This document shows, piece by piece, positions 1,473-9,130 of a DNA stretch of 64,000 bases. Under the pieces are notes generated by a model, which had not been told where the DNA came from, did not search any database, and worked only from the letters and a program-made list of their open reading frames with translations. Numbering within the stretch: position 1 is the stretch's first letter; each line of letters starts with the position of its first letter. The translations under genes and the position numbers were made by a program. The stretch covers positions 1 to 64,000 of the forward strand of contig JAKAOG010000003.1 in NCBI GenBank assembly GCA_021823325.1, written 5' to 3'. This stretch comes from an archaeon (GTDB lineage: Archaea > Thermoproteota > Nitrososphaeria > Nitrososphaerales > Gagatemarchaeaceae).

Positions 1473-2444
1473 TTGAAGGGGAAAACGGGCCCGGTCGCGG
1501 GCTATCTCGGGCCGATACTAGACACCTACATGAACTCGGCCGTCGCTCTCGTCGGGTGCAACTCGCGAGGGATCGAGAGGTACTCGTGCGAGCTGGACGT
1601 CCTCGTGGTCACGGGCGACAGGCACCCGCCGACGACCCTCAAGCTCGGCGACGCGTATGCCGACGTCGTCTTCGCCCCTGAAAGCGAGATACTGAAGCCC
1701 AACAACCCCGAGAAGGCCATGTCTCTGGCTCTCGCCAAGCCTGTAAGGGACGCGTCTCTCCTGCTCTCGACAGGGAGCGCAGCCGCGGCCGCGACCTTCT
1801 CCGACTCTGCGAAGGTGGCGGGCAGGACGAGGCTGACGTCGGCGCTGAAGACCGTCGCAAGGGCAGAGCTGGCGGTCAAGTCTTCGCCCGTCGAAGCCGA
1901 TTTTTGGCTCCTGGCCGCCTCCTATGAATACGCGTACGCCTTCCTCTTTTCCAGGGAGACGGTCCCCTCCCCCAGCCACCTGCTTTCACAGCTGAGGGGC
2001 GCCTCGAAGGGGGCCGCAAAGAGCTTCGAAGGGGTCTCCATAGGGGCGGGCCTGGACTCCGCCACGAGGGCTGCGTGCGGCACCAGGCTCGACGCTCTCG
2101 CGGTCCTCCATGACCTCCTGAGAGAAGGGTCGGAGTCTGCTACGGCGGAATCGGAGTGGTCGGAGGCGAGGACCGACGTCCTTGACGCGAAGGCGAGGGA
2201 GCTCATCACCAGGGTCGAGCTCGCCGAGTGTTACTCTTACCTGGGACAGGAGCTCGTCGACGACGTCCTTTCGGTGCAGAGGCGGCACCCTAAGAGGAGC
2301 GTCGGCTCGCTGATAGGCGGCGGGAACAAGCTCCTCGGCGAGCGGCTCGTAAGGCAGCTCGGGCTTTCAAGGGATGAAAAGTCGGTGAAATCGGGGCTCG
2401 AGGTCCTCAAACGCCAGGTCGTCCAGCTCACCAAGAGGATATAG
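1473..2444 (+). CDS. Conserved hypothetical, nucleotidyltransferase-like N-terminus
   Basis: TTG start; 'VALVGCNSRGIERYSCELDVLVV' resembles a Pol-beta NTase strand; no firm family. Confidence 0.5.
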   Translation: MKGKTGPVAGYLGPILDTYMNSAVALVGCNSRGIERYSCELDVLVVTGDRHPPTTLKLGDAYADVVFAPESEILKPNNPEKAMSLALAKPVRDASLLLSTGSAAAAATFSDSAKVAGRTRLTSALKTVARAELAVKSSPVEADFWLLAASYEYAYAFLFSRETVPSPSHLLSQLRGASKGAAKSFEGVSIGAGLDSATRAACGTRLDALAVLHDLLREGSESATAESEWSEARTDVLDAKARELITRVELAECYSYLGQELVDDVLSVQRRHPKRSVGSLIGGGNKLLGERLVRQLGLSRDEKSVKSGLEVLKRQVVQLTKRI

Positions 2445-2476: not shown

Positions 2477-3277
2477 ATGCGCGAAAGTGGCATGTCCGCC
2501 TCCGAGGGCGACGCCCTTGCAAAGATCGCGGGAGACATCGTCTCCAGCCCGGACGCCGGCCGGGCGATGAAGGCGTGGAGGGAGAAGCTCAGCATCAAGC
2601 AGAAGGCGCTGGCGGACGCGCTGATAGTCGGGAGAAAGTGCTCGAAGTGCGGCGAGCTGAACGAACTGGAAGCCGCTGCCTGCGCGAAGTGCGGCTCGAC
2701 CAGCCTGGCGCCCAAGGGGATGTCCGCTTCGGTCCTCAGCGACTACGAAAGCGGGCGGAGGCCGTCCCCCGGGGTCGTTTTCGTGAAGAAGTACGTCGAA
2801 GCGCTGGTGAAGTTGGATGAGGGAAAAGGGAGGGTCGTGTCGAACCTCCTTTCTAGCGAGAAGGACGCGGCCATCCTCTCGATAGGCGAGTTCCACTCCC
2901 CGATCGCGGCGTCGAAACTCCTGAAGCTCCTTGACGCGACCGTCCTTGCCGGGGACCCGGAGCAGGTGAAGCTCTATGGGTACACCGTCGTAGACAGCAT
3001 AAAGACGATCTACGCCCTCTCAGGGTACGACTTCTACAGGATATTCGGCGCCACCACGGAGAGGGCGCTCATTTTCACCAGGGTGGGCATGGGGAGGAGC
3101 CCGCTGGTGGCGATCAGGGTGTCCCAGCTGAAGCCTCGAGTGGTCATCATACACGGCCCTGAGGAGGTCGACCCCCTGGCCGTGGACCTCGCAAAGAGAG
3201 AGGGGCTCGTCCTCGCGCTTTCCGGCGCCCCTTCTGACGACGCGATGATCAAGGCGCTTTCGTCGCTGAAACCCTAG
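2477..3277 (+). CDS. HTH transcriptional regulator (MJ1621-like) with Cys4 zinc ribbon inserted in the HTH
   Basis: WREKLSIKQKALADAL-[CSKCG…CAKCG]-SASVLSDYESGRRPSPG; C-terminal 'TERALIFTRVGMGRSPLVAIRVS…KPRVVIIHG'. Confidence 0.75.
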   Translation: MRESGMSASEGDALAKIAGDIVSSPDAGRAMKAWREKLSIKQKALADALIVGRKCSKCGELNELEAAACAKCGSTSLAPKGMSASVLSDYESGRRPSPGVVFVKKYVEALVKLDEGKGRVVSNLLSSEKDAAILSIGEFHSPIAASKLLKLLDATVLAGDPEQVKLYGYTVVDSIKTIYALSGYDFYRIFGATTERALIFTRVGMGRSPLVAIRVSQLKPRVVIIHGPEEVDPLAVDLAKREGLVLALSGAPSDDAMIKALSSLKP

Positions 3278-8743: not shown

Positions 8744-9130
8744 TCAGACCGTGCAGAACTTGTACCCGTAGACGATCTGCCCCGACTCGCCGTCGACCCT
8801 GGCCCTGCGGACTATCGCTCTCACCCTGGCCCCTGTCTTCACGGACTCGTCAGGGGAGTCGACTATCTGGCTCAGCACCCTCGTCCCGTTGTCGAGCGTT
8901 ATCACCGCGAGGTAGAACGGGGCCTGCGCCTCGAACCCAGGGAGCGGCTCGTGCAGCCGGGTGTAGGTGAGGACCTTCCCTGTCTGCGGCATCTCCTTGT
9001 CCGTTATCTTCTCCGACCCGCACTTCTTGCACCTGTAGACCGGCGGAAAGAACTCCGCGCCGCACTCGGAGCATGCGCTCCCGACGAGCCTGTAGTATCT
9101 GTCCCTCTGCCTCCAGTACTGTATGGTCAA
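8744..9130 (-). CDS. DUF35 zinc-ribbon/OB-fold protein partner of thiolase/HMGCS
   Basis: 'GSACSECGAEFFPPVYRCKKCGSEKI' then OB fold; TTG at 9130 sits 1 nt after thiolase TAG; longer start at 9154 also possible. Confidence 0.85.
   Translation of the reverse strand: MTIQYWRQRDRYYRLVGSACSECGAEFFPPVYRCKKCGSEKITDKEMPQTGKVLTYTRLHEPLPGFEAQAPFYLAVITLDNGTRVLSQIVDSPDESVKTGARVRAIVRRARVDGESGQIVYGYKFCTV

Follow-up and report, generated by a model that had tools for sequence, protein, structure and literature searches.

Zinc modules are combined with a related XRE-type helix-turn-helix (HTH) domain in archaeal MBF1 and in MqsA-type regulators, but there they lie N-terminal to the HTH, whereas the zinc ribbon described here lies inside it. 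Ribbons of the eL40 and Zn_Ribbon_1/DZR kinds share their CxxC-x10-CxxC pattern with this insert, but they are free-standing or terminal domains and are not inserted into an HTH. The nearest precedent found for an insertion between helices 2 and 3 is the atypical homeodomain of HNF1A (LFB1), which carries a loop of 21 residues at that position (PMC4901127). That example, however, is a eukaryotic homeodomain whose insert is common to its whole class, as against a single species in the present case. A literature search over titles and abstracts, with partial coverage, returned no published zinc ribbon inside an HTH turn; the HNF1A insert, to our knowledge, is not a zinc ribbon either.

The regulator considered here belongs to an archaeal ortholog family that we take to be COG1709. 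COG1709 is listed as a 'regulator' among the proteins specific to all Archaea (PMC1852104), a paper in which no mention was found of MJ1621, the protein after which the earlier note on this DNA had named the family.

The regulator and its locus

The window, a stretch of 64,000 nucleotides, comprises positions 1-64,000 of contig JAKAOG010000003.1 in assembly GCA_021823325.1, the genome (7 contigs, 85.65% complete) of an uncultured Gagatemarchaeaceae archaeon. An open reading frame on its forward strand, whose translation matches the quoted protein exactly, encodes an XRE-type HTH regulator (Table 1); judged from the starts of its relatives, the true start may be the ATG at 2492 (Met6). The second half of the motif gives the protein a match of 25.3 bits to Pfam HTH_3 (cut-off 23), and the same model is matched by all 39 relatives in the alignment that was scanned. 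By sequence the HTH resembles a designed DNA binder, MBF1 (weakly) and other XRE-type proteins, and by structure, in Foldseek comparisons, C.BclI, SinR and other XRE-type regulators. The aMBF1 model TIGR00270 is not among the NCBIfam matches of the window protein, and is matched by 9 of the 39 relatives (best E 1e-6).

The C-terminal domain has no Pfam match in this regulator or in its orthologs, and the Pfam DRTGG model in particular matches neither the window protein nor its relatives. Foldseek nevertheless relates the window model to 3l2b (E 3e-4) and the model of a relative to 2ioj (E 8e-4, TM 0.70 by target length). The regulator is an archaeal XRE-type HTH joined to a DRTGG-like C-terminal domain, a modelled fold that suggests a sensor role.

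The order of genes around it (TFB, a 323-residue protein of unknown type, the regulator, a glycosyltransferase-like gene, DUF92 and GlyRS) is common to close relatives, and it is therefore the ortholog, and not a paralog, that is being compared. The gene for the 323-residue protein stands beside the regulator in 17 loci of relatives, and is probably co-transcribed with it as an operon partner.

Table 1. Features of the regulator locus, in window coordinates
Feature	Position	Strand	Basis or remark
Upstream gene, conserved, without Pfam match (323 aa)	1473..2444	+	32 bases before regulator
Gene for XRE-type HTH regulator	2477..3277	+	266 aa from ATG at 2477; Pfam HTH_3; orthologs
HTH helix 1	2555..2587	+	model residues 27-37
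HTH helix 2, QKALADA region	2600..2620	+	model residues 42-48; conserved in orthologs
Insert, Cys4 zinc ribbon, residues 50-80	2624..2716	+	junction DNA, alignment, ribbon models, model strands
Retained ancestral HTH turn Gly-Met-Ser	2717..2725	+	junction DNA, ortholog alignment
Recognition helix 3	2726..2752	+	model residues 84-92; alignment
C-terminal domain, DRTGG-like fold	2870..3262	+	about residues 132-262; Foldseek; presumed ligand-binding

An in-frame insertion at the end of helix 2

Relative to its orthologs, the gene carries 93 additional nucleotides, in frame and on a codon boundary, that encode the 31 residues IVGRKCSKCGELNELEAAACAKCGSTSLAPK; these come after helix 2 (KQKALADAL) and ahead of the recognition helix SASVLSDYESGRR. 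At the junctions the window reads CTG, then ATAGTC...CCCAAG for the ends of the insert, then GGGATGTCC. The corresponding DNA of a genus mate is ...GCGCTG GGGATG TCCGCC..., and this fixes 2624-2716 as the cleanest placement: the mate runs GACGCGCTG GGGATG TCCGCC, and the window runs GACGCGCTG, the 93 nucleotides, and then GGGATG TCCGCT. The earlier note had put the insert at 2627-2722, which is the same element slid by a few bases. It had also described about 30 residues with CxxC…CxxC as replacing the turn of the HTH; a ribbon of 31 residues is indeed present, but it was added at the end of helix 2, and the residues of the ancestral turn, G-M-S, still follow it directly. The four cysteines of the insert (Cys55, 58, 69 and 72, spaced CxxC-x10-CxxC) are all the cysteines of the regulator, and of 39 relatives sampled, 35 lack cysteine entirely. 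A 14-nucleotide near repeat (86%; 2489-2502 and 2717-2730) encodes GMSAS near the N-terminus and again just after the insert, and is probably a matter of chance.

The protein shares with its family the HTH, the C-terminal domain, full-length similarity (44-84% identity) and the gene order of close relatives; what sets it apart is the insert, which no other member checked possesses. XRE/HTH_3 motifs are recognised by a short turn that leads from helix 2 to the recognition helix; here this turn is longer by 31 residues. When the full protein is used as a query, relatives match in two pieces, one running to about residue 50 and the other starting from about residue 81, which lie next to one another in their genomes, and the alignment displays a clean gap of 31 residues in each relative shown. 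A residue-by-residue comparison, with all loci pooled, covered 111 distinct orthologs that extend from helix 2 to helix 3, and not one has an extra residue in the turn. The earlier proposal that the family otherwise runs from helix 2 straight into the recognition helix therefore stands, and the ribbon is not a common feature of the family. Among 80 named loci of the genome collection, ranging from MAGs of Nitrososphaerales/Thaumarchaeota to Thermococcus and Desulfurococcales, none has inserted residues in or near the turn. No second member with a ribbon in its HTH was found within the genus (31 genomes, 24 of them with any match). When a relative lacking the ribbon served as query, the genome of the window gave the only match broken at the turn among the matches listed from 400 genomes of the class, and likewise among those listed from 398 genomes of the phylum.

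The same searches returned some irregular relatives. Genomes of one family in the class (f10) gave weak HTH matches only, and several of another (f8) matched over the first ~80-90 residues only; the full-length regulator seems, from these matches, to have been lost or shortened in them. Two orthologs (G300:C3:8527-9197 and G109:C29:3555-4212) appear to be broken into two open frames in the region of residues 91-128, and would represent either frameshifts or split genes.

A predicted zinc ribbon growing out of the turn

The insert has two CxxC knuckles with the spacing of a zinc ribbon, and several short ribbon models agree on it, though none scores over its family cut-off: residues 54-81 are matched by Pfam Zn_Ribbon_1 (E 8e-4; 19.5 of 25 bits) and by NCBIfam eL40 (E 1.5e-5; 24.5 of 54 bits). 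Judged at the level of sequence, the match to ribbons exceeds chance. The best sequence match in the PDB is a solved eL40, and the best match of the insert in its own genome is likewise eL40 (44% protein identity over 27 residues), with DUF35/ChsH2 ribbons giving weaker matches there. One gene of the latter type, encoding a DUF35/ChsH2-type ribbon and an OB fold, lies elsewhere in the window (8846-9091, reverse strand), just downstream of a thiolase-like gene; it had at first been taken for a ribbon-HTH protein of the MBF1 type.

An AlphaFold2 model built from an alignment of 40 sequences (mean pLDDT 85.6) gives high confidence to helices 1 and 2 (about 92-95) and to helix 3 (92). Confidence in the ribbon is middling (70-79), because no aligned sequence covers it. 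Strands at residues 50-55 and 77-81 fall between the helices at 42-48 and 84-92, so that the ribbon grows out of the turn; a further helix, after helix 3, occupies residues 100-116. The model of a ribbon-free relative has the same helices (19-29, 34-41, 45-53 and 60-77), without the strands. Alignment and model thus agree with the earlier note that a Cys4 ribbon stands between helices 2 and 3, within the HTH and not outside it. As read from the secondary-structure string, the two strands would pair with one another.

The best-supported reading of these observations, to which we assign a probability of roughly 0.62, is a lineage-specific, in-frame domain insertion, in which the ribbon adds a structural element next to an HTH that is still intact. 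The regulator would have gained its 31-residue ribbon, in one species, at the C-terminus of HTH helix 2, and the ribbon would bind one Zn2+ through its four cysteines. Its end strands would pair as a stalk, and it is therefore proposed that helices 2 and 3 keep their normal distance; the operator would still be read by the HTH. The zinc would be structural, and DNA binding would need it only in so far as the insert must fold. In the lambda repressor the turn of the HTH lies near the DNA backbone, and by analogy the ribbon might make contact with DNA flanking the site, or bring in a partner. Placed beside the DNA-binding face, it may offer an extra contact surface for the DNA backbone, for RNA polymerase or for some other factor.

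Alternative explanations

The earlier note had gone further and suggested that the ribbon might make DNA binding dependent on zinc or redox state, or might change the geometry of recognition. Four cysteines do sit in the HTH turn itself, where unfolding would plausibly disturb the motif, and one may imagine a switch in which loss of metal or oxidation of cysteine distorts the geometry between helices 2 and 3 and frees the regulator from DNA. We consider such a switch unlikely: the cysteines are spaced as in common structural ribbons, eL40 among them; the neighbouring genes, named above, include none for zinc transport or redox functions; and the regulator already has a presumed sensor domain. 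Neither dependence on zinc or redox state nor a changed geometry drew support from the analysis. The recognition helix is identical to those of close genus mates, and the model keeps all HTH helices in order. That the regulator of one lineage is a metal- or redox-gated reader of DNA, in which the metal site directly sets the geometry of helices 2 and 3, is to be regarded as quite unlikely.

The invariant length of the motif in the 111 orthologs would also suit an insertion that broke DNA binding, the protein persisting as a relic or by virtue of its C-terminal domain. Unless the insertion is very young, however, the recognition helix of a broken HTH should have become relaxed, and this is not seen: that helix is identical to those of close genus mates. 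Outside the insert, comparison with nearer relatives gives dN of about 0.14-0.20 and dS mostly of 0.9-1.8 (dN/dS about 0.1-0.2), and by these rates the rest of the regulator is under purifying selection; the HTH taken alone has a dN close to that of the whole gene. In the tree the end branch of the window protein (0.20), which pairs weakly with YP1.bin45, is of ordinary length. The AlphaFold2 model also keeps the HTH. A loss of DNA binding seems distinctly doubtful, although a very recent insertion might leave all these measures unchanged.

The insert is known from a single assembled genome, as might be expected if an error of assembly or binning had joined foreign DNA into the gene. Against this, it is exactly in frame, encodes a complete ribbon and matches the codon composition of the gene (G+C at third codon positions 0.84, as against 0.85 in the rest). 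A source for such DNA is also lacking: no near copy was found in its own genome, and a scan of 400 genomes belonging to the order yielded no donor, its best matches being ribbons of other protein families (48-61% over 22-27 residues). No mobile-element or flanking repeats were found around the insert beyond short chance matches. An artefact is accordingly improbable. Searches for viral, phage or plasmid carriers of a ribbon-HTH combination found none.

Archaeal protein genes can carry bulge-helix-bulge introns, and the 93 nucleotides are short enough to be one that is spliced from the mRNA, but this is scarcely credible for an in-frame segment coding for a whole Cys4 ribbon, in a region that folds no better than its shuffles (z +1.26) and with no bulge-helix-bulge and flanking helices that fit the junctions.

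Implications

Gating, if it were true, would represent a new way of coupling metal state to the reading of DNA. On the preferred reading, that of a structural ribbon added beside an intact HTH, a turn between helices 2 and 3 that is otherwise constant in length across the family checked is predicted to tolerate a whole zinc-ribbon domain in this one archaeon. The untouched recognition helix, together with relatives that lack just the insert, makes the locus a clean natural experiment on the insertion of domains into folds, and one that could guide the design of metal-responsive regulators.
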